DNA of 64,000 bases from Nymphaea colorata. Its lineage: Eukaryota > Streptophyta > Magnoliopsida > Nymphaeales > Nymphaeaceae. Each line of letters begins with the position of its first letter. Position 1 is the first letter of the stretch. A program made the translations under genes and the position numbers. Shown here piece by piece: positions 710-44,640 of this stretch. The stretch lies in contig NC_045143.1 of NCBI RefSeq assembly GCF_008831285.2, forward strand, positions 13,408,151 to 13,472,150, in the 5' to 3' direction. The notes beneath the pieces are model-generated. The model ran no database searches and was not told the origin of the DNA. It saw only the letters and a program-made list of their open reading frames with translations.

Positions 710-3700
710 TCAACGGGACTGCATGGCCAACTCTTCAAAGACTTTCCCTCTATGTTCAAAGTTCTCAAATTCATCAAAGCTTGCACAACCTGGACTAAGC
801 ACAATTGCATCACCTGCAAATATTTCACAAATAATAAAAGAGGTAAAATCGATCTCACTAGAAAACAAAAAAAGGATCATTGGTGATTTTATACATTCAA
901 GGAATTATAGTAGGAACCACATCATCGAAGTTCACATTAAAAGCACTGGCTTATGGGCTAAGTCACATGGGTACTTTAATAAGCTCTACCTACCCATGTC
1001 GCCGTACCCGTACCCAAAATAAGTACTTAGAACACTTGGATACTTTTAGATCCGAACTGCTTAATTTCCTTACTTTTCATTCTATTCTTAGAGTTATTGT
1101 TCATTAACATATAATGTTTTTTACCCATATCACTTGTTTATTGAAATGTTGTTTTTATTTTGATTTTTTTGTGTTATTTTGCATATATACATACATATAT
1201 TTTGCCGTACCCCTGTACCCACATTTTTTAAAGTTATCGTGTCCGTACACGTATCTCCGTACCTATACCCAAACCGTACACGTACCCATGTGACTTAGCT
1301 TATGGGCCTTTAACACTGATTTCTTGAAAACCACAAATGTTCATCTTCATTATTTTTTTATCCTTTTGCCTCTTCCGCAGAGAATTTGGCCAGTCATTAC
1401 AAGAATTAGATTACTGACATGATGCCAAACAAGTAATTCAAGCCAACATATTCGTCCTTGATGCCAAAAAATGCACCTTAAATGAATGTCAAACTTGAGA
1501 GATTGTTCCTCGTCCAGATGGTAAGAATGTAGTTGGCTCAAAATGAGTTTACAAACTCAAGTATAAACCTGATGGAAGCATTGATAGATATAAAGCTCGA
1601 CTTGTGGCTAGAGGCTTCACTCAGCAGTACGGAGAAGATTATGTTGAGACTTTCAATCCAGTCATCAAGATGGGAACGATCTGGGTTATCATCTCTCTTG
1701 TCGTCTCATATGGATGGAATTATATCAGTTGGATGTAAAAGATGTTTTTCTTCATGGCTTTCTAAAGGAAGAAGTATACATGAAACAACCTCCAGGTTAT
1801 GCTACCAATGATCCAGCCAAATGGGTGTGCAAATTACAAAAATCACTGTATGGGCTTAAGCAAGCATCTCACTCATGGTTCGATAGATTTTCTCTTCATA
1901 TACAACAGGCTAGTTTTCTCAGAAGTTCACTTGATCATTCCTTATTTATCTATCATTCAAGTGAAATTACCACTTGGCTACTCATATATGTAGATGACAT
2001 AGTTCTTACTGGAAATTCTTCATGTCATATATCTCATGTTAAGAAGGTATTGCAACAAGAATTCAAGATGAAGGATCTCGATGAACTACGGTATTTGTTG
2101 GGAGTTGAGCTTGATAGAAAAGGTGACACATTAACCCTTACGCAACATAAATATACTCTTGATATTTTGGATAGAGTAGGTATGACAAATTGCAAGCCCA
2201 TAAATACTTCTAGTGTTCTCAGCACAAAATTGAATGCCTCGGACGGGAGTGATGCATACTCAAATCCTAGTTTCTATCGGAGTATAGTTGGCATGCTGCC
2301 ATATCTCACTTTTACACGCCCAGACATAGTATATGCAGTGAATCAAGTATCTCAGTTATGCACGCACCCACAGAGGGGCATATGGATGCTACCAAACGCA
2401 TTTTGCGTTATCTTAAGGCTACTCTTGAGAATGGACTCGTTTACACAAAACAGTCAACTGCTTTGCATGGCCACAATGTTTTCACCTACACTGATGCAGA
2501 TTTGGTAGGTGATCTAGACGATAGACGATCAGTTTTCGATTATTGTCTCTTCCTTGATTCCAACCTTATTTGTTGGAGTAGCAAGAAACAACGTGCAGTA
2601 GCCAGATCTAGCACTGAGGTAGAATACAAGGCAATGGCTGCAGGCACAGCTGAAGTTTCATGGTTACGCCATCTGCTTGGAAAACTCTCCCTTCCCATTG
2701 CTCAATCATCTTTATTTTGTGACAACCAAAGTGCGATCAAGATTGTCTCCAATCATGTTCTACATAATCGTACTAAGCATATAGAAATTGATCAACACTT
2801 CATTCGTCAAAAGGTTGTGGAAGACGAGATTGTTCCCACTTATATGGCCACATCTCAACAAGTGGTTGATCTTTTTACCAAGGGACTCACAGGGCACCAT
2901 TTTTGGGAATTGAAGAACAAGTTGTGCATGATCCAGCCCCATGCACTACTTAAGGGGGGCTGCTAAGATTGTACGATATGGATCGGGTCACCCAGACCTG
3001 ACCCATTTGATTCACACGCCCATACATCATGGGCAGTGGCATACTTGTAATTCTTAATGTTGTTTTGTGTATTTGGTTTTCTATCCTAAATTGTGATTAG
3101 TATATAATGATAACTAGAGGCAGACGTCAAGGTTGCTACCCTCTTTCTTCTCTCTCTTTCTTGCACGTGCGGTCTATTTCTCTCTTCCTCCTCTTGCATC
3201 TAACTTCATCTGGTGGTTTGGTTCAAAATGTTACACTCCTCTTTCATGAGAATTAAATCTTCCTTGTCCTTGCCCATATGTCTCCCAGGTTACTACTAGG
3301 GAGACTGTGATTGATTGTGACGGAGTCACTTCAGAAAATCCTTTCAAAGTCATCTTGTACTAAATCAGCTTGGTTCATAGCTCTTTGAACATCAGAAGAT
3401 TGAGCAAGCACAACAGTGAAGTGACAATCATATTGTGATGGGACCCCAATCCACTCAAAGTTTGTTCCACCATGTCTATGTCATTCACTATGCACCCAAT
3501 ACTAGCAAAAGCTGGCCTGACAGTTTTCATCTTATTCATGCACTCCATACTGCTCATAGAGTCTTTCTCCAGTAACCGAAACACTCTCTTAAGAAACACC
3601 ATTCTAGTATGTCAGACCTGACCACATGTCTGAACCAATCTATCGCACAGCTGAATAGCAGAAAATTCCATCACGGAATGGTTATAAGCACTTCCTATGA

Positions 3701-6700
3701 CAGAGTGGAAGTTCTGTCACATGGGTGCAGGTTGCAGGTGGTGGTGCGGAAGCGGATGCAGGTGTGGTGTGAATATTTTCAGAAAAAAATTGGGTGTGGT
3801 TATGGCAAAAGTATACATATATATATAATTATATAAATATATATATATATATAAATATATAAAATGTTATATACTATATTTTTTCGCTGAAAATTTTATT
3901 AAAAGGACATTTTGGTCCATTTTTGAAATTTTATGGTGAATAATTTTTCAATAGTGGCAGACCTTAAAAGGACAACAGGCCTGTCATCCTTCAGGCATGT
4001 GCGTGACCCAAGAAGACTGAAAAAGAGAGGAGAAAACAAGGGAAAGGAATTTCTTGCCAAAAAATGGGTGGATGAGGTCAACGGCACCACAAGCGTGCTG
4101 ACTGCATCAGTTTGCATGATGGAGCTGCAACCATGTCCGCATCCACACCTGCATCATCTTGATGTCAGTGTGGGTCCTTTTTTGAAGAATCCATGTGACA
4201 TAGAGTAGAAGTAATGCATGCAACCAAGAATAATCTTTTTTTTTTTTCAACAAAGATACTGCAGATTTTTGACATACACAATTGAGGTCACCTTTCAGAA
4301 AGGGATTCCAGACTATGGCAGAAAAATGGAAGACATCAGATCTGCAGAAGAATTCAGAACTAAAAAGAATATGGCAGGTTTGAGACTTGTAAACACAGAA
4401 TACTTTGAAAAGGACGTGAGATCTGAAAAGAAATTAAAAACTGATGTTGGCCATGAAGATTTAAGAAAGAATGTCAGATCTAATTCAGATTTAAAGGATG
4501 TCAGATCTGAAATCGGGAACATTTGATCTGATTCAGAAAAAAATGATGTCAGATACAAAGAAGGAGAAGTTAGATCTGATTTGGCAAAGAGTATGTTAGA
4601 TCTGATTTCTATCTCAGATCTGGAGCAACAAAGAATAACCTTTAAAAGAAGAAAAAAAAATAAATATACAAAAGAAAAAAAATAGAGAAGTTTAGGCTGA
4701 TATGAGGGAAAACTTTAACTTGGATGAAGAAACCTTGACCTACCTGGTCATTCCTTCCAGAGAAAGCTCAACAGCCAATCATGGAACTTGGCTCTCATAC
4801 TTGTTAGTTTTTGACACCACAGATCCTTCACAGAAGAGAAGGCCACATGGAAGAAAAGGGCTGCCCCTCAACTGTGAAAGGAGCAAATCAAACCACAAAT
4901 TCCATTGACTGCTATATGGGTATGATCGTAAGACATTAGGGTGCATTCAGGTACAAGCATAAATTGATAAATTACAATATGCTATTAATAACATGACCCA
5001 GATCAATGACATCTTTTTATGGACATGCGGATGAAGCAGTTCCAACACTGGACTGATCTCCCTTTCTAATATATGACTGTGGCATTAAAGACTGAAACAC
5101 CTTTGAATTGAGACCTGGATCCATTAAGGACCCAGATCCACAAATCAAGTCATATGGATTATAAACATGTTTCAATGAAGGGAACCTCCCCTCTTTTGGG
5201 ATAGGTTTCCCTTGACAAAGACATTTTTTTCACCTGTGTTCTCTAGTGCATTTCTACTTTGTGTGATATTGTGCTTGGTGTACTTGTGTGTTGCTCAAGC
5301 TCCTTGAAAGTGGTTTAACAAGTCAATTATTGAGCGTTGTTTTATGACTTTGAGTGCTGCTTTTTACATATACTCCAGTCGAAGACATGATTTAGCCATA
5401 GGAATGGGACATCAGAAATTATACACGAAAAATTAAGCAAGCTAGCAGATATGCAGCAGAAAGCCTGAATGTGTCCAACCCCAACCATGGAAAATTCACA
5501 TACCAGATTTAGCAATGTCCCGTGCAAGACTCACAGCATCTACCAGACATTTAACTGTAGTACAAGGAATAGAAAGCCCAGCACTCAGCAGTGCCTTCCA
5601 AATCATTTCCCCAGAAGCTCCGAACTGCCATCAATTGTAGCCATCAGAAGCATGTTAGTATTTTAGAAACTTATTCCAGAAATATAATTTCATACATATA
5701 CATGTAGATGTTTAACAACACATTCATGCATCCTGCGTGCATAGATTTAGGAAACATACTCATTACTCACACATGTCTAGTTTCTGATGTTTCATAAAGT
5801 AGTTTTGCAAATCAGCTTCCTTAGGCATATCTCTTCAGTTTAGCAGACATCTATCATTTCAGCAGGAAGTTTGTATGTACCTTGTCATTTGGAACTTCTA
5901 CTTAACTCCCATCAACTATGCAAAAACCACAGGTGCAAGTTACATTTTATAGACGACAGCTCAGTGTACTTTTAACATCCTTGTCATTTGAAACTTCTAC
6001 TTAACTCCCAACAACTATGCAAACCACAGGTGCAAGTTACATTTTCTAGACGACAGCTGAGTGTACTTTTAACATCAAATATGATTTTCCAAGTCAAGAA
6101 ATTTTGCTACATGGTAGACTGATGAACTTTTAAGTTAGAAAATTAATATGTACATGCAACCATGACACAACCCACACTTCATTTTCTACTAAATATGTAA
6201 AGCTAGTTGAACAAAAAGAAAAAACTTAAGGCAGACCTAGGGGCTCCTAGTACATAATCATTCAAATTCACAAGTTCCAGTGGCAATGATGTATTCTCAT
6301 AAAAAAAGCTGAATTCCGAGAAAATATATAGAAGTGGTGGACCATATTGAAGTGCTTCAAATAAAGTTGCTCCTACTCAAAGATCATGTAGATCACATGC
6401 ATCAGGTCAAACTCTAAAAAAGCTCAAAAGTATTACAGGAAATGCAAAACTGAAAACCCCTATAAGCACTGCTGTTCAAAGGAACTGCTATAAATAAAGC
6501 CACAACCTGACAAATCAAGGACTAAGATAGTCTCAATTAATATCTGTAAAAAACAGTGCATTAAAGCACAAACCGGAACTTAGTAATCTCGTAAGATAGA
6601 AGGGCACTACATACACGTAAAAGCAAAAATATTTCAGAAGAGACAATTCTTATAAAAACATTATCAAAGAGAAGGTGGAACCCCTGGCTGTTGAACTAGC

Positions 6701-9700
6701 TTCAAGTTTCAACAATGAGATTGCTAGCCACTAGGGATAACCAACAGCTAGCAGTTTGGACAGAGGCTAAACCAGAAAGAAGCAGCAAATATAAAAGAAA
6801 ATAATTGCTTGGGCATGGTTTTTAGTGATCGAATGCTCCTTTTGTGATGGTTTTGAGCAACACAAAATAAAAAAATAAAAAATAAAGGGCACCTAGCCGG
6901 CTGATTTCAATTTCTGTCTCTCTCTCTCTCTATACACACACATATATACATATATATAAATATATAAAATGACAATCATGTTCAGATATTCTCTAAGTAA
7001 CAACCACCATCCAACACGTGGCTGCCCATGTGCATATGTGTGTCTGTTGTCATGTGTGCTTGAGCAAGTGTGTCAGCGTGTTCGCATACCAAGTCATCAG
7101 CAGACACAGAAAATTAACTTTCACATATCTTACCAAGATGAATTGGTTAAGCAATTTTACAAGAGGCACATGGATAGTTGCTTCTCAAGCGAACCATCAT
7201 CTTTTCACAATGTGAAATTTATAAGTTTCTGAAATTCCTTGTTGAAGCCACCATGGTATTCCAGATGTTGTAATGGAGCCAGAAAGGCCCCTAGAATAGT
7301 GACACGTGTACATAATTGGGTAAGCAAGTGAGAAGTAAAATGTATGCAATGAAGAAAAGTTCTTATTGCAGAGATATTCAAGAAGCATCTATATAACATG
7401 TAAGGCTTCATAACTTACCGTGATTACAGCCTTGTGGCATTTAAGAGGCTCTGCCAGCTTTTCAAAACCACTGGAGCCATTGTTCTCAGCATTTTGCTAA
7501 CATTAGACAAACAGTCTAAGCATCAAAATCAGAATCATTAACATGTAAATCTGTTCATGCAACAAAGATGATAAATTCAGCAGAATCATAGATAAATATC
7601 ACAATCTCTTGTTCTCCCCAAGAAACCTATTGAAAAGCCATATAAGTGAAAATTTCAAAAAAAAAATTAGAAGATTGAAAACTATGTCAAGTTGGAAGTT
7701 TGTGCAAGTCCTAGGTTCTACAAAATTTTTTGCATGTCAGGGCACTAGAATACATATCGAGGCATAAGTGTAGATCATAAAACTCTATTAAACTGCTGCT
7801 GAAATTTGTCCCTTCCTTTCAATATCATTACAATTTAGCCTATTACAGGGGTGAATACCAAACCCATACAAAAAAAAAGTGCCAAAATTCCCCAAAGGGA
7901 TATTTACAGTATAACACCCTCTGGTTGGAGTCTTGGTCCAAATCAACAGTGGGACATGCACATCAATCCAAGAGCATGAATTGGAAATGCACCCACATCC
8001 ATAGGCTGACCTTCTGCCTGGCCGTATAATTTCAATGGCCTTTAAGAAATACTTCCTCATGCACCAACAAAACTTCCTGACATGACTTTTCTAATCCAAG
8101 ATTGCATGATGTCAGCTGTAAAAATGTCCACAAATAGGCACAAAAAACAGTCCAAATAAATAGAAGAAAATCATACTAGAATTGAATCACCAAGAACACT
8201 CAAGAAATATGCACTAAGTCAAAAAATGCACAAGTAAAGAAAACAATAATTCAATTAATAAAATGCTTAGGGAAGAACAAGAAAAACAAGAGAAGATACT
8301 CCCAAGTCCCCATGTGTACAGCCAGCAAGGGGTTGATCTAGCTGTCGGCTGGACCCTCCAAATGAAGCTGTGCGGAGGAGCCAAACTGGCAAGTCAACCA
8401 TGGTCAAGGATAGCTTGACCAAAATAAAAAGCCAAAAAAACAATACAGAAAAATAAATACCATAGAAAAGAAATAAAAATAAAATAAATATTTAACCTAT
8501 TAATATACTATACTCTTGTTGTGCGATAACCAGAGCTCCATAAAACATAGCCTATTCCATGGCTCTGCTACAGCATGCTGCTCAATTTCTCTAGCCTCCA
8601 CTGGCTCTCTCTACAGTCTCTCAACCTCCTGCTGAGATGCCTCTAGTGTCGGGGTGAAAACCTAGAGATCTCAGCATCTCAGTCTCTGCTCACCTGATCT
8701 CGAGTTTGTATCTCCCTGTAGAAGTCTCTCAGCTTCTATAGCAGCTGCTAATATTGTCTTCTTGACCTACCCTATTGGTGAAGGAAGCTTATGATGCTAT
8801 CCCAAGGCAAATGAGCACTTCGACCTGTTTAGAGCATAATCTGGATCATGCCACATCACTTATTCTACTATACCTTAAGAAGCCTACCGGATGTTCCGAA
8901 ACAGGCAGCTGGCATACCACCTGTAGAAGATGGTGAAGCTTGAATTGTGGCTTCTTCCTCTATTTTCTCTTCTGCCTCTAAATCTGCATCTCTAACAAGA
9001 GCAGGAAAAGAAATACATGCTCCTCTGAAAGCAGACACTTTAAACATTCAATTTCTACCTAAATGCAAAAAAACCATGAGATGCAGAAATGAAGAGTGAC
9101 AGGTCACTATAAAGATTACAGAGATGTAAGATTATATTTGTAGCACAAGGGCATTCACAGGAATATAAAATAGATTATGACGAGACTTTGCTCTCGTAAC
9201 GAGAATGACTAATATTGGAACCCTAGTGGTCATAACCTCCTTTCGAAAAAAGTTCAATTTATCACGTATTGCAAAAAATGTGTTTCTTATTGGTGATCTT
9301 AGGAAAGTGAGTGACATTTATACTCCCCCAAAGTATATTACTAAACAATAGAAAGTTTTGAAACTCAAAAAGAACTTTATGGCTTAAAACAAGCTCCAAA
9401 GTCTTGGTATGACAAGTTCAGTAAAGCACTTTTTTTCTTCGATATAAAACATGTGTCCATGAAACTGCTATGTTTGTTAAAGAAACTAGGTAAAAAAATA
9501 AAACTTTGGTTGCTATATGTAAATATGATGATACAAGGAAAAAGATGGAGTGAATCAAATTGCCCAAATGCTTAAGGAGAGTTTTGAGATGTTAGATGAG
9601 ACATTTCTTCAAGATAGAAGTTGCCAGTTACCAAATTAGATTTTGCTTTAAATGAAACAGGTTGCAGGTCAGAATCACAAGTGTTGACATATGTTGTATT

Positions 9701-24700: not shown

Positions 24701-27700
24701 AGACAAAGTTGAAATGACGACACCTAATCCAACGACTTCATATGGTTGATGACAACTGATCTGATCTGCTCTAGGATCACCTGATCTGATCCAGCAACTC
24801 TGATAGGTTCGACGGCCACATCAGGGTGCTAATCATGTCTCTACATGATAAACATGATTAGCCCTTTCAAACAAGCATTCTAGTCTTCCTCTAAGCAAGC
24901 AGCATAAGTCCTAGGAGTAAAACCCTTGGCTGGAGGGAAAGGAAGAAGATGGAGAGGGGAAGAATATGGCGTGAAACCCTAGGACCAGCAAAACCCTAGG
25001 ATCGGTTCTATGTTGTGAGAGAGTATTGAAGAGAGAGAAAACATGTTAATCTTCATTATTCTTGATCATATGCAATATATGATTAGGTCAAGGGAAGGGA
25101 GCAGCCACTTTACAATTTCAGTCCACTAGAAAAACATAAAAAACACAAGGAAACTAGCGAACTTAAAGAAATGAACCCCATGATCTTAGGCTATTTACCG
25201 AGAACTCTCTTTTTTTGTGCCATCTAGTTCTTTAACTTTACCATCAATAGGCATGATAAGACAGAAATTTTGGCTCGATTTTCCGAACCATCTATAAAAC
25301 CCCAAAAGACCTTCACCTCCCATGTGGTGCTTCATAGTAGAAGCCCAAGTCACATAATTCATATAAGAATGTTTGAGGAATGGTTGGAGAGAAAGATATT
25401 CCTTGTTTTCCAATTTGAAAAAATAAACTCCGGTTCTAGGAAGAAACATAAAACACTGGAAAGAGGGATTGTAACTTGCTAAGCAGACAATCCACACAAG
25501 CTACAGCACCCATAGAACTGATGAAGATCCTCAAAGGTATGTCAGCAAACAGTTGGTAAACAGCCAGAGATTTACAGTAGTAGGGAACTCAATTTTCCAA
25601 GGAAAAATCCACAACTTGCGATAAGAACAGACCGTATAGAGCCAAGCTCTGATACCATATAGGAAACAAAATATAGACATCAAGCTCTTGATCTTTCCCA
25701 CAAATGACATAAGGGACAATTCATTGCATATATAGATACAAATCTACATTTAACAGAAGAGAGCACTCACAAGGAAAAACAGTGTGCTAAGGCACCAAAA
25801 AAATTATTATTAATGTGATAACAAATAGATTACAAGAAGCTTGACATACAAGGGGGCCACAAGGTCCATTAAATAGAAAGAGGGAGGAACTAAACATCCA
25901 ATGGCTAGATTCCAAGTTCCAATGACTCTCTCAGCTAAGAATGACTCAGCTCAAAAAGAATAGAGCAAATACAAAAGAAAAAAGTAAAAGGAAAAATTAC
26001 AGAAAAAGAAAAATAAAAAATTTAGAAAAAAACTAGAAAGATAACCTGAAATTACATAAATCTTAACAGTTGGATGGCTCTATTGAACATCTAGGGGCAA
26101 GTTTGAAATGGGCCTAGTGGCACATGTATTGGCTTGCTTGCATCAGCTAATGCTTGCATGTAACCTGATCTATTTCACCAGTGGAAGAGACAATGAGCTA
26201 AAACATTATGACATAAACCAGAGTGATGCATACGTAGGGCCTCCAACCATCAAAGGAAAAAACAAGCAACTTCAGTAACTAGCTAATTAATTAGCAATTT
26301 CCATGGATGAGCTCTAAAATGAGAATTTTCAAATATATCTTAAGAAACATATCTGAAGATCAATTAAGGAGACTCACATTAACCAAAGTTTCTTTCACTG
26401 ATGATAAAGTATATATCATTCTCCTCAGTTTCTTCATGAATAACACATTAGCACACTCTTGGATTTGCAAAGAGCCTATTCACACAAACACGAAAAAAGA
26501 AGGCAGGAAGAAGGAATAGATATTCACCTATTTGCATCCGATGGGGAAGAGGGGATAATTTCCCAATAGCTTCATTTATTGAATTTACTTCAATTCCCAT
26601 ATTCAGTCCAAGTACACAGAATGTAGCGACTGCTGCATTCTGGAAGTTATGGTTACCCACTGTATTAAGGGAGTCCAATTTCAGTTCTGCACTTAGGCCT
26701 GTGGTTGGAAGTTCTATATAGGCAACCTTCTTATCCATCACCATCTGCATTAGCTTGAAAATAATACAATGACAATTAAGAACTCCGGAAACTTTCAACT
26801 AAAAACTACAAGCACAGATATTATTAACTTGCCTTGAGACCAGGAAGGTCTCCTATCCAAGTAAGAGTGCAATGGTTTAGCCCATGACGAAAAGCCTCCA
26901 CTAATAGTTGATTATCTATTTAAAGAAATCAATAAGAGCAAATAATGTGTGAAACATTGGGAAAGGTACCTCTAAATGTAATTTAGAAGGCTATATATGT
27001 TGATTTGGACAATGAAAGGAGAAAAGTTAGAGAACAATAATTTTTTGATACTGTCATTGAAAGATAAACTATTCATAAGATACTATAACAGTTCCAAAAT
27101 ATCATGATACTGTCATGATAGCTTCAGAGTTTCCTTTCTGTCATAGGCCTCCCCAGTCCATCATCCGGCTTATGTTCATGTTATTTGCTTGTTCCTCATA
27201 TTCTACAAATGTTTTCTCCTTGTTATTATACGTTTCAACCAAAGAAATTTCACTGAAACCTTCTTTTATACATCTTTCTACAATTCAGAAGTAATCAACT
27301 TTTATATTATTGAAAATATTGCCAAGACTGACAATTATGATTCAAATTAAGCGAAATGAGTACTTGAAAAATATTAAAAGGAATTCACAAGCCACATTAT
27401 TTTCTCACTTTGTTTCTCCAGTATTCTTTGTATACAAAAGTTCCTTATATATCAAGGATATTTCTTCTCAAATTAGGCTTAAATTTCTTCGAACAAATAT
27501 AATTCATGATATAATAAGCATGACTTTAAGAAGAAAACAGAATCATGCTAAGAGTAAAGTTTATCAAAAACTCCTTTAAGTAAATTTGAACTTTAGCATG
27601 ATCTCAAAACATGCTAAAACAGAAGGTATGCAGTCAACTGTTGTCATCACTATTAAAGCCAAATCTGACATCGATAGTGTTGAATAATATTTGTGTTAGG

Positions 27701-33700: not shown

Positions 33701-36700
33701 GAAAAAGAGGATTCAAAAATAAATAAATGAGGTAGATAGGGGCTATGGCGAACCATAGGAAGTCGAGGATGGAGATGAATGCATTAAAGAGGGTGAGGAT
33801 GTTGATGCTGGCCTAAGATTAAATGTGGCTAGCTCGAGAGCCAAAGGGAAAGGCATCCTGCATGAAGAGTAAAATTTCTAGCAGGAAGAGAAGAAGTGTG
33901 CCAACTAGTAGGCATGGTCATCGTGGTAGAGTAGTAGTGCAAGTATAGTATTGGATTTATCAAAAGTTTTTTTTCCTTCATATATTGCTCCAAGTGCTCA
34001 GCGCAACATCTGTGCTGCTATAGCCTCAAAAGATATGATAGAACAAGCATATATAGAAGTTGGGAGATGGTTTTTACAATGCATGTATTCCCTTCAATGC
34101 AACTAATTCATTTCATTTCCAGGCTATGGAAAATGTGATACTTCTATAGAGTCTGGATTTAAAATGTCTTCATATCATCAGCTAAGAGGCAAAATTCCTG
34201 ATGCAATAGCAAAAAAAGTAATAAAATATTGTGAAAAATTGAAATTGAGCTAGAATGAAACAGGCGGCAGCATTATGGAAGATGACGGACCAATACAAGG
34301 TTAAGACTTAAGAATACTTCTGAACTTTCTAGTTCATTGCCCTAAAGGTACTATATTCTTAAAATCACTTGATATATCTAATGTACCTAAGACTGTTGAT
34401 ATTTTGTGCAATATTTTTGATAATGTTGTACAAGAAGTTAGGTCTGCAAATTTTTTACAGTTATTATGGATAATGCTGCAAATTCTAGAGTTGTAGCCTT
34501 GCAGGAGAATTGTTGTTTCAAATTTTTTTAAAGTTCATTACTGTCATGCATAAATCTCATGCTTCAAGATCTTGGTGAACATATATGAGATGAGTTTAAC
34601 AATGCCAAGGGATCACAAATTTTTTTTATAATCATGTACACATATTGAGTCTCATGATTGGTATCATCTTAGCTTTTGTCAACTCAGTTTCTTGTGTAAT
34701 CAAGCTTTAAGTCTTTCACCAAAGGCCTGAATTTTCATCTTTTGTCATATTGTTTGTACTTCTATCACATGTAGTCATGTACAACATGTTTCGACTGATA
34801 CAGTTTCTTGTTTACCTTTGACCTCACATCCCTTTTCCTCTTCATCTATTTTTAGCCCATAAGATTTATTTCTTCAGACATCTAGCTTGTGTTTCTTGAA
34901 AATTACCTGGCACTTGGTGTATTGGGATCTAGAAATATTTTGTAATGAATGTACCGGAAAACCTTCTTTGGATTTGCCCAAGAAGGCAAGAACTTTGGGC
35001 TTCATTTATTTTTGTCTGGGATGGCTTGCTTTGAGTTTGGTGCATTTCATGTAATAGGTTTGTATGGCCCTGGAATATGGGTGTCTGATCTAACGGCTAA
35101 CCGGAAAAGTACAGCCTGTAAAGTGTAAACCCTTCATGGGGCATGGAGGGTTTTGATCCTTTTGTTCTAGGAGGGAATAGCTTCTCACATACTGCAGCAG
35201 GCACCTTGAGAATATTAGCAGGTCTATTCCATCTTATTGCATGACCAGACATGGACAACATATAGGTAAATTATCAATTTACAATAATAAAACAAAATGA
35301 AAACCAAATCTTGTATGAATCACACAGACCAACAGAAATTAACCAAATCTTGTATGAATCACACAGACCAACAGAAATTAACTGCAAAACCATGTATTAC
35401 GTTGATCTATAGGTATCTTCATACCAGCTGGAAGAACAGCAAGATCGCAATCAGTCATATGACAGAATAATCGGCATTTTGTATAGGCATAATTCCACAT
35501 AGTCTTGTGTCTCTCTAAGTGATCAGGAGTGAGATTTAATATGACTGCCACCTGGATTCCACAGAAAAGGTAAGCTGAATGATAAAATCACGATAAGAAA
35601 GGGAAAGAAACTTGCTTCAGATTCGGTCATCACATACAGAGGGATGCAAGTACTTATTCGGAATCTCCAACTGATAGCTGCTCACCTCCACAACTGCAAC
35701 CTAAGTATCGGGGTAATTATGTAAGGCTAAAATTATAAAAGAAATAATTAAATAGTGGTTTCATTTATCATTATAGATTATACCACATCCAAAGAATGGT
35801 TACCAGGTCAACTATGGTCAATGTCTACAAGTCATTAAGCTTCTTACCAATATTCTGGAGATAATTGTTATATACCAAAAATCTGAAAAACTAAGGCCTT
35901 ATGTGTAAGGATAAAAGTGAGTGTGAAGATAATTCAACTTACCTGGAATTGGGATTCACCAGATCCCATACACTGTAAAGCAGCCTTTGAAAGTGGATTT
36001 CCAAAATTTCCTCCAACAAAAGCCTTGATGCCAGAATGCTGAAGTAGCTGTCTTCAAGATAAACCCAAGTGAGTTTGAAGTTGAGGATGATCAAGAGAAA
36101 TAAGTTATTCTATGAATATACGTTCTGTTTACAGAAACAAGTCTCCGAGCAACTGTTTCCATGTATACACTGGGACTGAAATTAGACTATACCAGATTTC
36201 AATCATAGTTCTCTCTTACTCCTCCTGAAATCAGAAATCTATCATACTCAGGACCGTCGTTAACCATAGAGGAGAATCAAATGGCTCCTACTGACTGTGT
36301 CTACACTGTGTTAGTAGAACTCATGGAGAACACAGCATGGGATCAACTGTCCACCTAGATGTTTCCACTTTCCACTATATTCCTAAGTTGGTGCTGCTAA
36401 TTATTGATAAGTACTAGTAAAGATTTTAGGGCTTGGTGATTAGAAATAAAAGTTCTAAAGCTGAGGCCCTAACTCCTCCACAAACACAGATAGGTTTTCC
36501 CCTGTTGACTCCAAAAGACCAATTTCATTCAGTTTAGGCATAAAACCAACTTCACTGATTTACCCATCCATAACCAAGATTTGCTCAAATAAGGCCAACC
36601 ATATTGAGAACTTATCTCAAAAGATAAAACTGACTCTATGCATGTCTGCCCTTGGCACACTCAAAAGAAGTGAACAGACGCCAACTAAGGTTAAGAAGCA

Positions 36701-39607
36701 TGACATTGCAAGAAAACCAGATATAGATACAAATTTATATCTCATACACAAAACACTCTGTCAAGAGAGCTCTTTTCATACTAAATCAACAGGAGCTTGA
36801 GGTCTAAGGCACAAAAAATTGTCATTCACACACTCAACAGGAGGCTTCAAAGAAGCATACATAGGAGAGGACCGTTTAGGACCTTAAATATACAAAATGA
36901 GGAGCCACCAGAATCTTCAGCATCTAGAAATCCAGCGGTTAGAGAGTCCAACAACTCTCTCAACTGACAACTCTCAGCAATAAAAAGTACAAAAATAAAA
37001 TGAGAAAGTACAAAAAAGAAGAAAAATGAAGACATAAAAAAGATGATAAAAAACTAATTCCTAACAACCCCCTCAAACTTAGGGTGAAGTCACCAAAATT
37101 TTGCTAAGAAGAAAAGTAGAAAAAGCAGATCCAAGCCCTTTGGTGAAGAAATCAGCTGGTTGATATTCTAATGGAACATAACGTAACTCAATTGTTTCCT
37201 TTAGAATTTTTTTCCTGCACAAAACGACAATCCATGTCAACGTGCTTTCTCATCTCATGGAATGTACAATAAACTGGCAATATAAAGAGCACTTCTGTTA
37301 TCACAGCATAGCTTGGGAGGGCCTTCAAGATTGACTCCTATATCATCGACTAGATCCCTTAACCGGATAATCTGCATAACAGTTGAGGCCATAGCTTGAT
37401 ATTCTGCTTTTGTAAATGACAAAGAGACCTTCTATTGCTTCTTGCATCTCCACGAAATTAGAAATGAACTTAGGAATACACAAAAAATGAGTAGTAGGGT
37501 GTCGATTATTGGGATTCACCTCCCCAATAAGCATTTGTAAACACATTGAATTCATCATGTAAACGTATAATTTCTGGTGGATTGACAAATTTCCAAATTG
37601 CATGTAGGAGGTTGTTAGTATCCTCTTTAGCAACTTCTTGTAATCATGTCCTCCTCCACTGCTTCGGATAGGTGAACAAATTGATGCCACTTTAGATGAC
37701 ATTGACCAGGTTATTCCAGACTCTGAATGAGGATGAAGATAGAAAACTAGCAGCTAGAAAGATGGTGGACCAACATTTTAATAAAGTGCACCATCATCAT
37801 GAAGAAAAAACAAGGGAACATCTGACCAATATGTTGAAAATTTAAGTTCCTTCTCTTTTTATAGTTGACAACTAATGAGCATTTTGAGGACATTAATATA
37901 TTTTGTATGCTCCAGCTCTATGAAAACAATGACAAACATTGATCTTAGAAATATTTTGTCATCATCAAATATGATTATGTTATTCATTATTGATTGATTG
38001 ATGGACCATGTTTACATGGGAATGGTTCAATTTGCTTGTTGAATATAATATTTAGCACCGCAATCATTCGGTTTCTTTTTCTTTCATATAGCTTAAAATG
38101 TCAAGACATGCCTAGGCTATAGGTGCTACTAAATATCTAGGCTCCACTCTTACCGACATAGCTTATAAGGATCATAGAGGAGGACAAAGAATTCAAGGCA
38201 ACCAATAAGGCCTGTAGAACAACTAAGAAACTTAAACACACTCAATAACAAGAAAGGGCGAGCATTCACATACCTGACTAGCATAGCTAGTCACTGTTGA
38301 TTTTCCATTAGTTCCAGAAATCGCTAAAACTGCAGTTTCTTTGTGCAAAACCTCAGCTGCAAAGTCCAGTTCAGACATTACTTCCTTTCCCTGAAATGCA
38401 GTATTGACAATGGTATGCAAGTGAGCAGTATTGACAATGGCAATGAATTCATTATTGACAGTCATAAGTCATTAGAATGGAAAAAAAGAAAGGGATAAAA
38501 ATATATACAGCAGCTTTGGAACATGGGAAGTCATACAGATTCTAGCAATCCTGCTAAGCCATAGGTCTCAAGAGGAACCCCAGGTGAGACCACCACTCTA
38601 TCGGCATCCTTCAGGAAGTCTGCACCGGAAGGTGCAAGAACTGTTCGCAAGCGTGTATATTTTTGAAACAAAGGATCAACCTGAAAGTAACTTCTAGCAT
38701 TAATAAGAAAATTTGGAACCCAAAATTTCAAAATTTCAAACAGCTAATAGCCATACTTCCAGTGGAAGCAGATTCTCATTTCTATCAATAGCAAGGACAG
38801 ATGCTCCTCTTGCAAGTGCAAGTTCAGCAGCTGCCTTTCCAGAAGCACCTAGCCCCAGTATCTGCAAATGGACATGAAATGAAAAAAAAAAAAAAAAAGT
38901 CAACACAATTTATCCGTTTAGTAAAATTGAGAGATGTAAAAAAGATGACGTGATGAAAAGTTGAGTCAAAAATCATCCTTTCAGTATTATCATTAACAAT
39001 CAGACATATTACTTAGGTCATAGGTTTGAACAATTTAACTGCATAATGCATATTTAACACTGTCACTAACATACACTGTTTTTGGGCCGTAGATTGGAGC
39101 TTCTCTCATAATCAGTTCTAACAGTCATCCAATATGAAACTCAAATCAAGTCAATCATTTTTTGGTTTCAAAAAATCAATGGTGTATAGAACACTAAAAA
39201 TTTTGGTAATAGAAAGATCAATATGTTTAATGAAAATAACTTGAATTAAAACATGATTTATACTAAATTAATAATCATAAACATGTTACCATGTTGACTT
39301 GAATTTAGGTGGTATTGTTTATACATATATATATATATATATAAGCAAAATCCAGAAATTTAGGGGGAAAACCAGGGAAAAAAACAAACTGGCAAAAAAA
39401 AAATTCATTGATTCTTACAAGTTACAACCATTCGCAAAGCATGAAAAACAGGTGAAATTAAGATGATAAATAGGTACTCACAGCGACAGTTTGACCATCA
39501 AGGTCCTTTTGTGTTAGTCCGTGATTCTTACTTGTTGCCGTTACTAGCAAGCAATATCTTGGCCTGTGAACCATCACTTTACATCCACATGGAATCTTGC
39601 ATATCAT
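710..39607 (-). CDS. MurD: MurD-type UDP-N-acetylmuramoylalanine--D-glutamate ligase, 13 exons
   Basis: Adds D-Glu to UDP-MurNAc-L-Ala in peptidoglycan synthesis; in plants the pathway is plastid-linked. Exons (minus strand, in order): 39482-39607, 38757-38861, 38537-38680, 38274-38390, 35943-36047, 35638-35700, 35425-35551, 26833-26915, 26528-26744, 16374-16501, 7419-7496, 5504-5624, 710-813. They total 1518 nt, join in phase with no stop, and give 505 aa (bacterial MurD is about 440, so an N-terminal extension of about 40). Motifs seen: Rossmann GLGASG (45-50), P-loop GTNGKST (151-157), VEVSSYQLE with Glu204, [10 protein letters not shown] with His231, carbamylation-site Lys245, LSPLPHRMQ with Arg359, [12 protein letters not shown] (373-384), GGIAK, and [10 protein letters not shown] near the C-terminus. 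All catalytic positions expected for MurD are present. Twelve introns run from 76 nt to 10 kb, and four of the large ones contain transposons. An in-frame TGA lies just upstream of the chosen ATG, so the true N-terminus may come from another exon. Confidence 0.93.
958..1298. mobile_element. hAT-like MITE copy 1, TIR CTAAGTCACATGG
   Basis: The ends are perfect 17-bp inverted repeats (CTAAGTCACATGGGTAC and its complement). They are flanked by a perfect 8-bp direct repeat CTTATGGG at 950-957 and 1299-1306, the target-site length of hAT elements. There is no coding capacity. Subterminal CCGTACCC-type repeats sit inside both ends. It lies in the last intron of MurD. Confidence 0.8.
1380..2966 (+). 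pseudogene. Copia element A: RT-RNase H remnant
   Basis: This is the 3' half of a Ty1/copia pol. The RT part begins near 1560 ([14 protein letters not shown]-like) and continues through [22 protein letters not shown] and the catalytic [12 protein letters not shown]. RNase H/C-terminal blocks follow ([43 protein letters not shown]). There are frameshifts near 1700 and 2360 and an in-frame stop near 1543. Gag, protease and integrase are absent. It lies antisense inside the last MurD intron. Confidence 0.85.
2961..3235 (+). repeat. Probable 3' LTR of copia A
   Basis: It begins TGCTAAGA directly after a purine tract (AAGGGGGGC) that follows the pol stop, and ends ...ATGTTACA. No matching 5' LTR is seen, so the right boundary is inferred from the TG...CA ends only. 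Confidence 0.5.
3330..3602 (-). pseudogene. Copia gag (UBN2-type) remnant
   Basis: The minus strand encodes a stretch with the copia gag pattern: [16 protein letters not shown], then LASIG-like [15 protein letters not shown], then [16 protein letters not shown]. The next segment toward 3330 is broken by a stop. It abuts copia A in the opposite orientation, so it belongs to a different insertion. Confidence 0.6.
3712..4203. mobile_element. hAT-like MITE copy 2
   Basis: Terminal repeats are TTCTGTCACATGG at the left and the complement of CTATGTCACATGG at the right (10 of 13 alike). Near-identical 8-bp flanks AGTGGAAG (3704-3711) and AGTAGAAG (4204-4211) support transposition. It contains an AT microsatellite at about 3807-3860 and no gene. 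Confidence 0.7.
4328..4620. repeat. Short interspersed GTCAGATCTGA repeats
   Basis: At least seven variants of the motif (G)TCAGATCTGA or TTAGATCTGATT occur at irregular 30-50 bp spacing. They create a spurious repetitive ORF (DVRSE units). Probably an eroded tandem repeat within a MurD intron. Confidence 0.6.
5881..6076. repeat. Tandem duplication, two units of about 98 bp
   Basis: The unit starting CTTGTCATTT and ending TTTAACATC occurs at 5881-5979 and again at 5980-6076 with a few substitutions and small indels. It lies in the MurD intron between exons 12 and 11. Confidence 0.9.
6077..7418. other. Intronic sequence, no gene seen
   Basis: This is AT-rich MurD intron with a (TC)n/(CA)n/(TA)n stretch near 6917-6965. 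Nothing else is recognised. Confidence 0.5.
7497..9129. other. Intronic sequence, no gene seen
   Basis: This is the first part of MurD intron 10. There are no usable ORFs and no recognised transposon domain. Confidence 0.45.
9130..9665 (+). pseudogene. Copia element G: reverse transcriptase remnant
   Basis: Broken copia RT is readable on the plus strand: [16 protein letters not shown], then [20 protein letters not shown], then [11 protein letters not shown], with a frameshift and stops between the blocks. The catalytic YVDD block is eroded. Copia B starts 17 bp downstream, so B may have inserted beside or into this older element. Confidence 0.65.
9682..9804 (+). repeat. 5' LTR of copia B, truncated/rearranged
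   Basis: The first 120 bp (TGTTGACATATG...) match the 3' LTR. The match then stops at a segment carrying an 11-bp inverted repeat (TAGGGTGTTCC ... GGAACACCCTA, about 9805-9850). No TGGTATCAGAGC primer site is found, so U5 and PBS appear lost. Confidence 0.7.
10253..11303 (+). pseudogene. Copia B gag region
   Basis: Gag reads from ATGGCAGAA (stop three codons in) through [42 protein letters not shown] and a CCHC knuckle ([14 protein letters not shown]) at about 11023-11064. Stops interrupt at 10262, 10592 and 11303, the last where the element C homologue reads [11 protein letters not shown]. The longest open piece is 235 codons (10598-11305). Confidence 0.8.
11303..12540 (+). pseudogene. Copia B protease and integrase region
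   Basis: The protease begins with a damaged IVDSGAT block. Integrase shows CNVCQFAKH of the zinc domain, [17 protein letters not shown] and [12 protein letters not shown] of the catalytic core, and [22 protein letters not shown] short direct repeat (VKKLDPxSI twice, near 12390-12450) is an internal duplication. Stops and a small duplication of SVSKIT-coding DNA near 11510-11600 break the frame. Confidence 0.8.
12540..14588 (+). pseudogene. Copia B reverse transcriptase and RNase H region
   Basis: RT blocks are in order: [46 protein letters not shown](Q)[20 protein letters not shown] (catalytic DD) and [11 protein letters not shown]. RNase H follows with [10 protein letters not shown] and RSSEEVEYR. 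It is interrupted by a stop at 13454, a frameshift near 13490, a stop at about 14083 and a frameshift near 14380. Confidence 0.85.
14589..14828 (+). repeat. 3' LTR of copia B
   Basis: This 240-bp LTR, the same length as those of element C, runs from CGTTGACATATG to CTTCTACA. The expected 5' TG is CG here, one sign of decay. A purine tract (GAGAGGGAG) precedes it. Confidence 0.8.
14834..16373. other. Intronic sequence, no gene seen
   Basis: This is the rest of MurD intron 10 on the exon 10 side. It is AT-rich, with no recognised domain or clear repeat. Confidence 0.45.
16873..17214. mobile_element. hAT-like MITE, relative of copy 1 (inverted)
   Basis: The reverse complement aligns with MITE copy 1 along most of its length, including GAGTTATTGTTCATTAACAT and TGTACCCACATTTT. 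The ends (CTACGTCAAATGG at the left) are decayed versions of the CTAWGTCACATGG terminus. The target duplication is not clear. Confidence 0.65.
17750..18235 (-). pseudogene. Copia D RNase H remnant
   Basis: [15 protein letters not shown], then [24 protein letters not shown] and [14 protein letters not shown] are readable in two frames, with a frameshift between about 18000 and 18060. Confidence 0.8.
18236..18587. other. AT-rich insertion interrupting copia D
   Basis: About 350-400 bp with no coding signal separates the RT C-terminal block ([11 protein letters not shown]) from the RNase H SDAD block, where copia elements usually have about 60-100 codons of related protein. It is rich in T-runs. 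Its identity is unknown. Confidence 0.5.
18588..19199 (-). pseudogene. Copia D reverse transcriptase, downstream part
   Basis: [21 protein letters not shown] carries the catalytic [31 protein letters not shown] and [17 protein letters not shown] follow in a shifted frame. The upstream continuation is across element C at 24536 and above. Confidence 0.85.
19205..19444 (-). repeat. 3' LTR of copia C
   Basis: 240 bp, TGTTGACGGG...TTTCTACA on the minus strand. It is preceded by the purine tract GAGGGGGAG. The pol stop codon lies within its first bases. Confidence 0.95.
19439..21850 (-). CDS. Copia C pol: integrase C-terminus, reverse transcriptase, RNase H
   Basis: An open frame of 803 codons from a frameshift in the integrase core to the natural stop in the LTR. 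Order: [20 protein letters not shown] (integrase), [12 protein letters not shown], then an acidic linker. RT blocks [40 protein letters not shown] and the catalytic [12 protein letters not shown] follow, then RNase [20 protein letters not shown] and [10 protein letters not shown]. All expected catalytic residues of RT are visible. The annotated first Met is only where the frame opens; in an intact relative it would be part of one gag-pol polyprotein. Confidence 0.9.
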   Translation of the reverse strand: MLNVTRAILFQRNLPKYYWGDAILTSVYLINRMPSRVLKGRTPYSMLPGSSQPFHLPPRVFGCVCFIHNHSPNVKKLDPKSIKGIFLGYSSTQKGYKCLDPTTGRLHITKDVAFLEHVSYFGENSLQGEKLMSKEEYSPTQEIQFTDFMDYRREENPVAKVLGKDEEGTTTDVHEQAKEGEHPMVTEQEGNRMFGQVYSKRRACTDKVIDDEEVTPNPNPTSSLDDPSRVQKQDVGREIQTGKEKEDLPIALRKGVRSCTQHPIGNFVSYSRLSTDYKCFVSSLAVVVIPRNATEAQGDTKWSHAMKEEMEALDRNQTWEVVDIPEAAHLVGSKWVYTVKYKPDGNIERYKARLVAKGFSQKYGIDYLETFAPVAKMKTVRVIISLAVLKGWEMCQLDVKNAFLNGDLEEEVYMCMPPGFEKPGKCCKLKKALYGLKQSPRAWFERLRLVMKKHGYKQGNGDHTLFVKRRESKVTLLLVYVDDMIVTGDDKEEIARSKGLLSTEFDLKDLGKLKYFLGIEIARSGTTLVLSQRKYTLDLLKETGKLGCRPASTPIDAGHKLGSKDGELLCEEAKGRYQRLVGKLIYLTLTRPDITFAVNVMSQFMHAPTDMHLKAVDRILCYLKKNPGKGLLYVEQRSIEVEGYSDADWADCVDIRRSTSGYCVYLGGNLVVWRSKRQDVCSRSSAEAEYRAVATGVSELLWLKILLTDIGIEIEGPMRMYCDNKSAINLANNPVLHDRTKHVEIDRHFIRERIDAKELMLPYMKSEDQTADVLTKALSVTPFERNVSKLGMFDMYAQLEGEC
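21763..23283 (-). CDS. Copia C gag C-terminus, protease and integrase
   Basis: 506 codons. Order: gag C-terminal half, CCHC knuckle [14 protein letters not shown], aspartic protease [13 protein letters not shown], integrase zinc region ([19 protein letters not shown]), SDVWGPSG and [10 protein letters not shown] 1-nt frameshift near 21885, in the block coding SYTPPQNG in relatives, diverts the end of this frame into the wrong phase. The upstream boundary is a TAG at 23284 that interrupts gag. Confidence 0.88.
   Translation of the reverse strand: MQYMTDKWENRVFLFLSGLNDDFENIRSQILNSDESFSIEDVYSRVEAEEQRRLLSSGRKGEEQSAYVSRAPVGTPRSSRKCTHCKKLGHTRDFCWDLYPEKKDSRGRSSSGKKPVSSATSLSDGKGSISAEQIRELRAYLSKIDVGQADTPDEVKINQALAVSGGEGTSYMGEWIVDSGATHHMTGNPKLFHDYKLSSGKERVSLAEGSFTSVAGKGSLSLLNNFLVHDALHVPHLPLNLLSVSKITKELKCELIFSEKRCVLQDLVTGKRIGIGLVSDGLYRLPIRVVTALMSAVSRTEKKEEECRQLFLFWHERLGHLPFGILKHLFPELCSSLNISMLSCDVCQFAKHVRASYPISNSRSNKAFSLVHSDVWGPSGIHSRGGFQYFITFIDDYSRCTFVYLLKDRSEVPHIIETFILLVENQYGNSVKTFRSDNAREYLCLTVEEFFRKRGIVHETSCSYTPLKMGLLRGKIVSCSMSPEPYCSKEISQNTIGVMQSLLVST
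23284..23790 (-). CDS. Copia C gag N-terminus
   Basis: It starts at the ATG of [12 protein letters not shown], the match to element B's start, and reads [30 protein letters not shown] and [19 protein letters not shown]. It ends at a TAG nonsense codon, after which gag continues in the same frame. The ORF could extend 11 codons upstream, but alignment with B favours this start. Confidence 0.85.
   Translation of the reverse strand: MADSSSSSVNTTLPDVVSARTDHVPVQVTTIQLTKENYSRWSAAITMGIAGRGRIAYVNGRKVEPAADGLAWDTWFLEDNQVKTWIVNSVSPDIQPLILRKKTARDMWIILEQIYGQKKRKVRVYQLMKDVYSLRQGALSVADFYAALKSKWEDLDYHSDIPWRCPHD
23840..24278 (-). other. GC-rich untranslated leader of copia C
   Basis: Between PBS and gag lies a strikingly GC-rich stretch of CCGCCG/GTCGCC-type repeats, unlike the AT-rich surroundings. 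Element B has a far less GC-rich leader at the same place. No coding role is seen; it may be structured leader RNA. Confidence 0.6.
24279..24290 (-). promoter_or_regulatory. Primer-binding site of copia C (tRNA-iMet)
   Basis: TGGTATCAGAGC directly follows the 5' LTR and is complementary to the 3' end of plant initiator-methionine tRNA, the usual copia primer. Confidence 0.95.
24291..24530 (-). repeat. 5' LTR of copia C
   Basis: 240 bp. It is identical to the 3' LTR except for one base (ACAAAGG here, ACAGAGG there, as read on the plus strand). Confidence 0.95.
24536..24700 (-). pseudogene. Copia D reverse transcriptase, upstream part
   Basis: Minus-strand [13 protein letters not shown] and, adjoining element [18 protein letters not shown]. 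This is the half of the RT motif that is completed on the other side of element C, which proves the nesting. Confidence 0.8.
25195..25497 (-). pseudogene. Possible copia gag scrap of element D
   Basis: A 100-codon frame contains [21 protein letters not shown], which resembles the N-terminal gag pattern (LxxxNYxxWxxxMxxxLxGxGL). It lies 150 bp downstream of a tRNA-iMet primer site in the right orientation. The match is short and the rest is unrecognisable. Confidence 0.4.
25646..25657 (-). promoter_or_regulatory. Second tRNA-iMet primer-binding site
   Basis: The minus strand reads TGGTATCAGAGC, preceded by TTGTTTCCTATA, as at the end of a copia 5' LTR. It probably marks the 5' end of element D. 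The LTR itself (above 25658) could not be matched to a partner. Confidence 0.6.
25658..26527. other. Intronic sequence, possible D 5' LTR
   Basis: AT-rich MurD intron 9 near exon 9. It may begin with the undefined 5' LTR of element D; nothing else is recognised. Confidence 0.35.
26831..26832 (-). other. GC splice donor of MurD intron 8
   Basis: Exon 8 ends ...CTCAAG and the 88-nt intron starts GCAAGT, matching the known AG|GCAAGT consensus of GC-AG introns. It ends TGCAG. The reading frame (LPGLK|MVMDKK) requires this junction. Confidence 0.85.
27678..27910 (+). repeat. 5' LTR of copia E
   Basis: TGTTGAATAATATTTG ... CAGCAACA, with a TC-rich tract near its 3' end. Confidence 0.93.
27911..27922 (+). 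promoter_or_regulatory. Primer-binding site of copia E (tRNA-iMet)
   Basis: TGGTATCAGAGC directly after the 5' LTR. Confidence 0.95.
28611..29406 (+). pseudogene. Copia E gag
   Basis: ATG of MDLEQQSNM, then [10 protein letters not shown] followed by a stop where the family normally has Trp. It continues as [37 protein letters not shown] and a CCHC knuckle [14 protein letters not shown]. At least four stops or shifts. Confidence 0.8.
29407..31429 (+). pseudogene. Copia E protease and integrase
   Basis: The protease block is altered to [12 protein letters not shown]; the family expects DSGAS, so the motif is lost. Integrase shows [32 protein letters not shown], the RTDNACEF block and [14 protein letters not shown]. 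There are stops near 30170 and 30400 and a shift near 30975. Confidence 0.8.
31430..32490 (+). pseudogene. Copia E reverse transcriptase and residual RNase H
   Basis: [32 protein letters not shown]-like [16 protein letters not shown] (catalytic DD), [13 protein letters not shown] and [20 protein letters not shown]. The text then jumps straight to [20 protein letters not shown]: about 100-150 codons including the SDAD and CDN blocks are missing. Confidence 0.85.
32515..32732 (+). repeat. 3' LTR of copia E
   Basis: It matches the 5' LTR with scattered substitutions and a shorter TC tract. It ends CAGCAACA just before GATAG. Confidence 0.93.
32985..33670. repeat. GGCCC/CCCGG-rich interspersed repeat region
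   Basis: Two GC-rich blocks (about 32985-33110 and 33500-33670) with repeated CAGGCC, GGGCCC and GGCTCGG words flank an AT-rich middle. They resemble the GC-rich arms of the repeat family at 44.8, 56 and 57.3 kb but lack its AT core. Possibly a related non-autonomous element. Confidence 0.4.
33980..34525 (+). pseudogene. hAT transposase remnant (DUF659 region)
   Basis: Plus-strand pieces in several frames: [15 protein letters not shown] (about 34079-34123), [21 protein letters not shown], then [35 protein letters not shown] and [11 protein letters not shown]. These follow the order of plant hAT proteins with a DUF659 domain. Several stops and shifts. No terminal repeats were identified around it. 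It lies in MurD intron 7. Confidence 0.75.
34560..35424. other. Intronic sequence with a 39-bp tandem duplication
   Basis: No gene is seen. A perfect 39-bp direct duplication (AACCAAATCTTGTATG...) occupies 35302-35379. Confidence 0.6.
36048..37060. other. Intronic sequence, possible copia F 3' LTR
   Basis: MurD intron 4. The part next to 37060 is likely the LTR of the copia scrap described at 37061-37420; its far edge is not visible. Confidence 0.35.
37061..37420 (-). pseudogene. Copia F RNase H remnant
   Basis: Minus-strand [41 protein letters not shown] and a decayed end. The purine tract TTTGAGGGGG follows, then TGTTAG, the start of an LTR. Only the last about 100 codons of pol survive. 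Confidence 0.75.
39320..39345. repeat. (TA)n microsatellite
   Basis: A short TA run in MurD intron 1. Confidence 0.8.
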
Positions 39608-43145: not shown

Positions 43146-43958
43146 TTATATTGCTTTTTGTTGAGCATCTGATAATCCAGAATGAGCTGCCTCCAATGCA
43201 GCCTTGTTTCTTTCAATTGCAGCAGCCACTTCCTTTGGCATGTACTTCTCATCATGTTTGGCTAGAACCTCTATAGCATCAAAGTAACAATCGCCTTTTC
43301 TTGCTTTCTCTAATGCAGGCTTGTTCGACGGCACCACCTCTCTATTCTCTGCATCAAAAGGGCGGATGAAGCCCTCAACAACAGCTGAGTGACCCTCTCT
43401 GAAAAGATCAGGTAGTGAGCCTTGATACCTAACCAAAATATCCGTCACGAGATCGGTAATCACAAATTGCATTTCAGGCGATTCTGCCGGTTGAACCACA
43501 CTCCCTTCCAGCACCAAACCCCCAAGCCTGAACTTGTTCTTCGAAGGATTCAGAGAAAATCTATCCAAAGCATCTGTGGGAGTCAAATAAAACATCATCT
43601 GATCTTGGAAATTGTTGAGGACTATTATGACAAATCCAGCAATGCCGCTGAAAGTAAGAGCATAGGTCCACAACCGGCGGTTCTGGAGCTGCCTAGCTCT
43701 GGCCCCGATGTCCACCGTCCGGGGACGAGCTGGTTGGCGACGAAGGGTGGCCAGGAACCGAGCGCCATTTCTCGAACATGCAGAATTCCTGGACAAATGG
43801 AAAGAATCAAACAAGGGAGCCGCTGTCCACGGACGAGACCAATCCAATACTGCCGTTTCGATTTGATGATGAGGCGGAAGACGGAAACGCGACCGACTGA
43901 ATAACCGAGAAGCGAAGCGAAAAGAAGCCTTAGAAGCCATAACCGTACCTAATTCCAA
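43146..43958 (-). CDS. CCME: Cytochrome c-type biogenesis protein CcmE, mitochondrial
   Basis: Haem chaperone of cytochrome c maturation system I: it binds haem covalently and hands it to the lyase, anchored in the mitochondrial inner membrane. The 270-aa intron-free frame has an Arg/Ser-rich presequence (about 1-75, e.g. RFASRLFSRSRFRL), a membrane helix at about 96-116 (LWTYALTFSGIAGFVIIVL), the OB-fold core (FRLGGLVLEGSVV, VRYQGSLPDLFREG) and the haem-binding segment VLAKHDEKYMP with His235 and Tyr239. The length fits plant CcmE. The ATG at 43940 (MASKASF) is an equally good start. It is on the same strand as MurD, 3.2-4.3 kb upstream of it; no functional link is implied. Confidence 0.95.
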   Translation of the reverse strand: MELGTVMASKASFRFASRLFSRSRFRLPPHHQIETAVLDWSRPWTAAPLFDSFHLSRNSACSRNGARFLATLRRQPARPRTVDIGARARQLQNRRLWTYALTFSGIAGFVIIVLNNFQDQMMFYLTPTDALDRFSLNPSKNKFRLGGLVLEGSVVQPAESPEMQFVITDLVTDILVRYQGSLPDLFREGHSAVVEGFIRPFDAENREVVPSNKPALEKARKGDCYFDAIEVLAKHDEKYMPKEVAAAIERNKAALEAAHSGLSDAQQKAI

Positions 43959-44640
43959 TATGGATCACATAAGGAAACCACCAGAGCAATGGGAATTTAT
44001 CAAAAGGGAAAAAGGAAAACGAGAACAAAATTTTCAAGGATCGACTATCCAACAGCTTTAATGACTTCGATGAAGGCTTCCAGCAACAAAAGATGCTTTC
44101 TAGAACCCGAAACTGCTAACTAATCTACTACAACCAGCATGGGTCAAAATTTAAGCATCGACCACTAAACAAGATTGATGGAGATGCTTAAAGAAATTCG
44201 CCAAAATCAGAATTCTTTTCTAAATTCCGGAAGGAATTGACACACAAAATCGGCAAAGCGGGGGAAAGCAAAACTAAACCCTAATCTTAATAAAAACCGC
44301 GCATAGGGAAAGGGAAACGAAAAGGAAAACCGATCTAGTCCAGAAATTTTTGGGGCTTCTACACATCTACCTGCAATGAGGAGGAACGCTTCTTCCCGGC
44401 AGATTAGCACACCAAGGAAGGCGTCCTTGGCGCCACCGCCCACCTATTTGGAAATGTCGCGAGGCTGCAGAGCCTCCCTACCTTAACCGCCGCCTCCTGC
44501 GATGGCTCAAGGACAGCAGACAGGGGAGAGATGTTTGAGACGCGACTTTAATCGCGTTAGAGTTTCTCTAAAAAATTGTATGAAAAGAAGCCTACTTTCG
44601 GAGGCGGCGCGGGCGCTCACGGTGGACTCTTATTTCGTTT
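43959..44640 (-). promoter_or_regulatory. CCME upstream region (5' UTR/promoter)
   Basis: GC-richer near 44.38-44.53 kb and likely transcribed leader. A 5' UTR intron is possible but not provable here. A 19-bp repeat (CTCTTATTTCGTTTT twice) sits at about 44625-44661. Confidence 0.4.

Follow-up and report, generated by a model that had tools for sequence, protein, structure and literature searches.

A 2016 paper (van Baren 2016, PMC4815162) describes peptidoglycan gene sets across vascular plants that lack only the penicillin-binding protein (PBP), and nine of ten genes were reported in several monocots and dicots in 2023 (Tran 2023, PMC9954125), according to the sections of these papers that treat plant gene sets. 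In corresponding passages, Asparagus officinalis and Citrus sinensis are credited with the full toolkit (MacLeod 2024, PMC10784329), and a paper of 2025 gives these two species nine genes, with angiosperms having only a transglycosylase-domain gene (PMC12681378). Ddl, MraY, MurG and MurE are described as present in all sequenced plant genomes in part of PMC9954125, and Arabidopsis as lacking MurA, MurB, MurC and MurD in part of PMC4815162. A role in plastid gene expression has been described for angiosperm MurE, as excerpts of two papers relate (PMC9434261; PMC12681378). Among the matches listed in a literature search, none is by its title a paper on a Nymphaea Mur gene, and a search on peptidoglycan and MurE in plastids of Amborella found nothing.

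The locus considered here is at 39607..710 in a window of 64,000 nucleotides (the whole stretch of DNA analysed) from Nymphaea colorata. It is probably an intact nuclear angiosperm gene for MurD, UDP-N-acetylmuramoyl-L-alanine--D-glutamate ligase. Angiosperm MurD is already known from the sets reported in parts of PMC4815162, PMC9954125, PMC10784329 and PMC12681378, and therefore the gene can be taken as a real plant gene and comes as no surprise. The sequence-only reading, which had ascribed a fuller set to mosses and gymnosperms, was incomplete on this point, as the same passages extend such sets to angiosperms.

The land-plant set without a full PBP, as outlined in portions of van Baren 2016, MacLeod 2024 and Tran 2023 (PMC4815162; PMC10784329; PMC9954125), has MurA to MurE in common with N. 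colorata, as well as a transglycosylase without a transpeptidase domain. It differs in that the reported nine-gene set includes MurF, which six probes did not find here. The full Mur sets of Picea abies and Physcomitrium have MurD at the same pathway step; however, they include a bifunctional PBP and are documented, in the relevant passages, by cloned cDNAs or detected intermediates (PMC12681378; PMC9434261), whereas the N. colorata genes are known from genome sequence alone. The four-gene set of Arabidopsis (MurE, MraY, MurG and Ddl), as given in part of PMC4815162, shares MurE with N. colorata, and MurD, MurA, MurB and MurC are found only in the latter.

Structure of the MurD gene

The locus is on a 26.3-Mb contig (C6) of the plant assembly (407.8 Mb, 783 contigs). 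Thirteen predicted exons on the minus strand splice into an open frame of 505 codons (1518 bases including the TGA stop), and the rebuilt model matches exactly the continuous 505-residue MurD that the sequence-only reading had assembled. The features are as follows.

39482..39607, minus strand: exon 1, residues 1-42, with the likely ATG at 39607 and an in-frame stop a few codons 5′
38757..38861, minus strand: exon 2, with the glycine-rich motif ILGLGASG
38537..38680, minus strand: exon 3
38274..38390, minus strand: exon 4, P-loop GTNGKST with K155; own match to the MurD model
35943..36047, minus strand: exon 5
35638..35700, minus strand: exon 6, with E204 and SSYQLE
35425..35551, minus strand: exon 7, with H231 and K245; own match to the MurD model
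26833..26915, minus strand: exon 8, with WIGDLPGLK; placed by motif scan, GC donor
26745..26832, minus strand: intron 8, GC-AG, 88 bases, donor context AAG|GCAAGT
26528..26744, minus strand: exon 9, with GNHNFQN and R359
16374..16501, minus strand: exon 10, with NDSKATN and K405; own match to the MurD model
7419..7496, minus strand: exon 11
5504..5624, minus strand: exon 12
710..813, minus strand: exon 13, with the stop codon; own match to the MurD model

The exons were placed by spliced alignment guided by bacterial MurD, that of Escherichia coli and then that of a bacterial relative (L010). Exon 8 was missed by the alignment and was positioned by eye through a motif scan of the gap; a middle exon that the alignment proposed near 33004 was discarded in favour of 26915-26833. 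Alignment to E. coli MurD alone, with introns penalised only lightly, was dropped, as it gave spurious mini-exons.

The introns, 1 to 12, measure 620, 76, 146, 2226, 242, 86, 8509, 88, 10026, 8877, 1794 and 4690 bases. All 12 junctions are predictions; the acceptors are AG at each of them, and the donors are GT at 11 of 12, donor 8 being GC. Across the 13 predicted exons no stop codon or frameshift interrupts the frame, and every splice site is kept. The chance of 505 stop-free codons at the base composition of the introns is about 3e-15, a crude figure since the exons were picked for openness. Least secure in the model are the start codon and the N-terminal extension, which spans about 34 residues. 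The extension is short, and its reading as a plastid-targeting sequence, made by eye, is tentative.

Relationship to bacterial MurD

The spliced protein scores 307.4 bits (E 1.9e-91) against TIGR01087, the NCBIfam MurD equivalog model with a curated cut-off of 211.95 bits, over model positions 1-439 of 441, and a chance match is excluded by this score. The second-best family reaches 109.2 bits, far under its own cut-off of 550. The closest solved structures lead to the same family, the best eleven all being listed as MurD. When the whole genome was scanned with the MurD model at E <= 10, seven matches were obtained: the window accounts for four, all on the minus strand, MurE on contig C12 for two, and C11 for one weak match. 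Thus, 4 of the 13 exons match the model on their own.

E. coli MurD has identical residues aligned to K155, E204, H231, K245, R359, N374-D375-S376-K377 and K405, and all of these are at the positions that the sequence-only reading had assigned to them. The aligned E. coli residues have catalytic or substrate roles, as the P-loop lysine, the glutamate, the histidine, the carbamylated lysine, the arginine, the NDSK block and the second lysine. The C-terminal SPxCAS block is also kept in the alignment. Compared with bacterial MurD (TIGR01087; E. coli MurD, PDB 2jff and others), the plant protein is alike in whole length and fold family, and, with E. coli, in the P-loop, the His/Lys/Arg/NDSK residues and the C-terminal SP(G/A)CAS block. 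In contrast to the bacterial genes, the plant gene has 12 spliceosomal introns and a short N-terminal extension, and its protein has an insertion of about seven residues after K405.

Identity is 31.2% to E. coli MurD (134/430 aligned columns) and 42.7% to the L010 protein (197/461). The record that holds L010 is titled as a metagenome-assembled genome of Rhodobacterales, and L010 is top-ranked among six bacterial relatives found. These six loci were obtained by a scan with exact peptide patterns, which does not rank bacteria and is silent on the origin of the plant gene. Moss MurD, according to a passage of PMC9434261, is nearest to homologues of the Fibrobacteres-Chlorobi-Bacteroidetes group.

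Retrotransposon fragments and neighbouring sequences

Each of the four longest introns contains LTR-retrotransposon fragments, which account for the 39-kb span of the gene.

1648-2505: RVT_2, in intron 12 (fragment zone 1648-2966)
11682-12641: integrase, in intron 10 (fragment zone 9784-14475)
19442-23283: RVT_2 and integrase, in intron 9 (fragment zone 18845-23871)
29509-30168: Pol_BBD, in intron 7 (fragment zone 29509-32549)

RVT_2 is the model for Copia-type reverse transcriptase. The retrotransposon in intron 9 has the same strand sense as the MurD gene, and those in introns 7, 10 and 12 are opposite.

Upstream of MurD, at 43149-43964 on the minus strand, is a frame with a CcmE domain (a cytochrome c maturation gene of nuclear type). 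Farther along the window, LINE-type frames at 50222-52813 comprise an endonuclease and a reverse transcriptase, the latter broken by a stop at 52207, and a G+C-rich stretch at 48-52 kb surrounds this element. Elsewhere in the assembly, contig C783 (159,842 bases) is the plastome, with frames of atpB, ndhK and matK type by eye.

Other peptidoglycan genes in the genome

MurA, MurB, MurC and MurE coexist with MurD in the genome, with profile scores above their cut-offs. MurA (C13:9072897-9069997) gave five exon matches that were found unguided, and its model, guided by E. coli MurA, reaches 461.2 bits versus a cut-off of 392.7, the splice choice before EPEV being doubtful. MurB (C11:15938345-15939531) scores 232.1 bits versus 144.5. 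MurC lies at C9:24037083-24047583 and slightly past; its model is partial, scoring 353.8 bits versus 335.1 over model positions 23-403 of 449, with the C-terminal end left out. On C12, MurE occupies a single open frame of 703 codons and scores 360.2 bits versus 257.3. Guided gene models are biased to the guiding family; the exon matches for MurA, MurB and MurC came without guidance.

The transglycosylase domain PF00912 is found in three pieces at C10:17280738-17282137, and the transpeptidase domain PF00905 has no match in the genome at E <= 10. Published accounts of angiosperms give the same pattern, with a transglycosylase but no transpeptidase domain. The finding of the four Mur genes and of the transglycosylase domain bears out the earlier suggestion of a fuller plastid peptidoglycan pathway in this plant than in Arabidopsis.

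MurC is also represented by four copies, at C1:14248034 (L067), C8:19818830 (L069), C7:17031694 (L070) and C7:1761380 (L071). They carry exons and introns of the C9 locus, in blastn pieces of 61 to 2034 bases with 72-85% identity, and there are stop codons near their exon-like stretches. Against the C9 exons, codon differences over these short stretches are 30 non-synonymous and 15 synonymous (17/6, 3/4, 6/2 and 4/3 for the individual copies). These counts are compatible with decay of the copies, and are no proof that the C9 gene is under constraint. Since MurC, the enzyme before MurD, has decayed copies at four places, it appears that pathway genes can decay in this genome. Comparable copies of MurD were not seen in the genome-wide scan with the MurD model (E <= 10).

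The search for MurF

A search of the same genome for MurA, MurB, MurC and MurF had been proposed on the basis of the window; the first three were found, and MurF was not found by any of six probes, which short or diverged exons or assembly gaps can escape. The family models PF08245, TIGR01143 and PF02875, like the MurF protein of L010, gave no matches except to Mur ligases that had been identified as MurC, MurD or MurE. A DNA pattern for DAYNANP had no match in the genome, and a pattern for GDM.ELG had six, versus three in a reversed control, none of the six in a MurF-like context. For comparison, a search with L010 MurD, the window being scaled to genome size, recovers the plant MurD in seven pieces at E <= 10, although L010 MurF may be less close to plant MurF than L010 MurD is to plant MurD.

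Apart from the main genes there are five weak Mur-type matches, and none of them is MurF: four are the decayed MurC copies, and the one on C11 reads as folylpolyglutamate synthase type. The latter (C11:1167015-1167101; L068) is a P-loop exon with GTKGKGST, assigned to that type by eye.

An absent MurF is the sole departure from the reported set, and may reflect a failure of search or assembly. It seems rather improbable that the plant has lost MurF while retaining MurA to MurE intact along with a separate transglycosylase. In that case UDP-MurNAc-tripeptide would be the end of the pathway, or another ligase would substitute for MurF, and tripeptide stems would be carried by the plastid product, whether peptidoglycan or a nucleotide precursor.

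What the MurD gene may do

The gene is likely to encode a ligase that is part of a retained peptidoglycan precursor pathway. The transcripts would be spliced as predicted, and the expressed product would most likely be imported into plastids, where it would add D-glutamate to UDP-MurNAc-L-alanine, between MurC and MurE; the retained pathway would end in a transglycosylase without a transpeptidase. Against this are the failure to find MurF or a transpeptidase domain, the decayed extra copies of MurC at four places, the very long introns filled with transposon sequences, and the short N-terminal extension. The earlier interpretation is supported in part: an intact-looking nuclear MurD and a pathway fuller than that of Arabidopsis stand, selection on the gene is at most presumed, and the six probes without a MurF, together with the unfound transpeptidase domain, speak against a full set.

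Perhaps the gene is a young pseudogene or has been relaxed from selection, i.e. it is still open, gives no working enzyme, and is surrounded by a pathway that is breaking. MurF missed by the six probes, the unfound transpeptidase domain, retrotransposon fragments in the four longest introns and decayed MurC copies elsewhere would agree with this. However, the 13 exons have kept their frame and splice sites, every named catalytic residue is kept, and models of MurA, MurB and MurE score above their cut-offs, as does MurC over positions 23-403 of 449. The decayed MurC copies add slightly to the weight of a pseudogene and leave the main reading unchanged; overall, a pseudogene is unlikely.

About equally unlikely is a ligase that was kept for a changed job, a Mur-type ligase or a part of the plastid machinery no longer used for peptidoglycan. 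Angiosperm MurE, with the plastid gene expression role described in parts of PMC9434261 and PMC12681378, could be a precedent, and the unfound MurF would be in keeping with it. Yet MurD has kept the residues for ATP and the amino-acid substrate, and MurA to MurC, which would supply that substrate, are present. Bacterial contamination or a recent bacterial transfer, to which the bacterial protein family and the metagenome-assembled origin of the highest-ranked of six relatives might point, is refuted by the 12 spliceosomal introns and by the gene's place in the chromosome: it lies on a 26.3-Mb contig, its introns harbour retrotransposons of plant type, and a nuclear-type CcmE gene adjoins it. 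Identity to L010 is just 42.7% (197/461).

N. colorata, which probably belongs to an early-diverging line, joins the angiosperms that retain a larger share of the plastid peptidoglycan pathway than Arabidopsis does. The absence of MurF, if true, would make the plant a naturally occurring example of a pathway interrupted midway, in which the remaining functions of angiosperm Mur enzymes could be studied.
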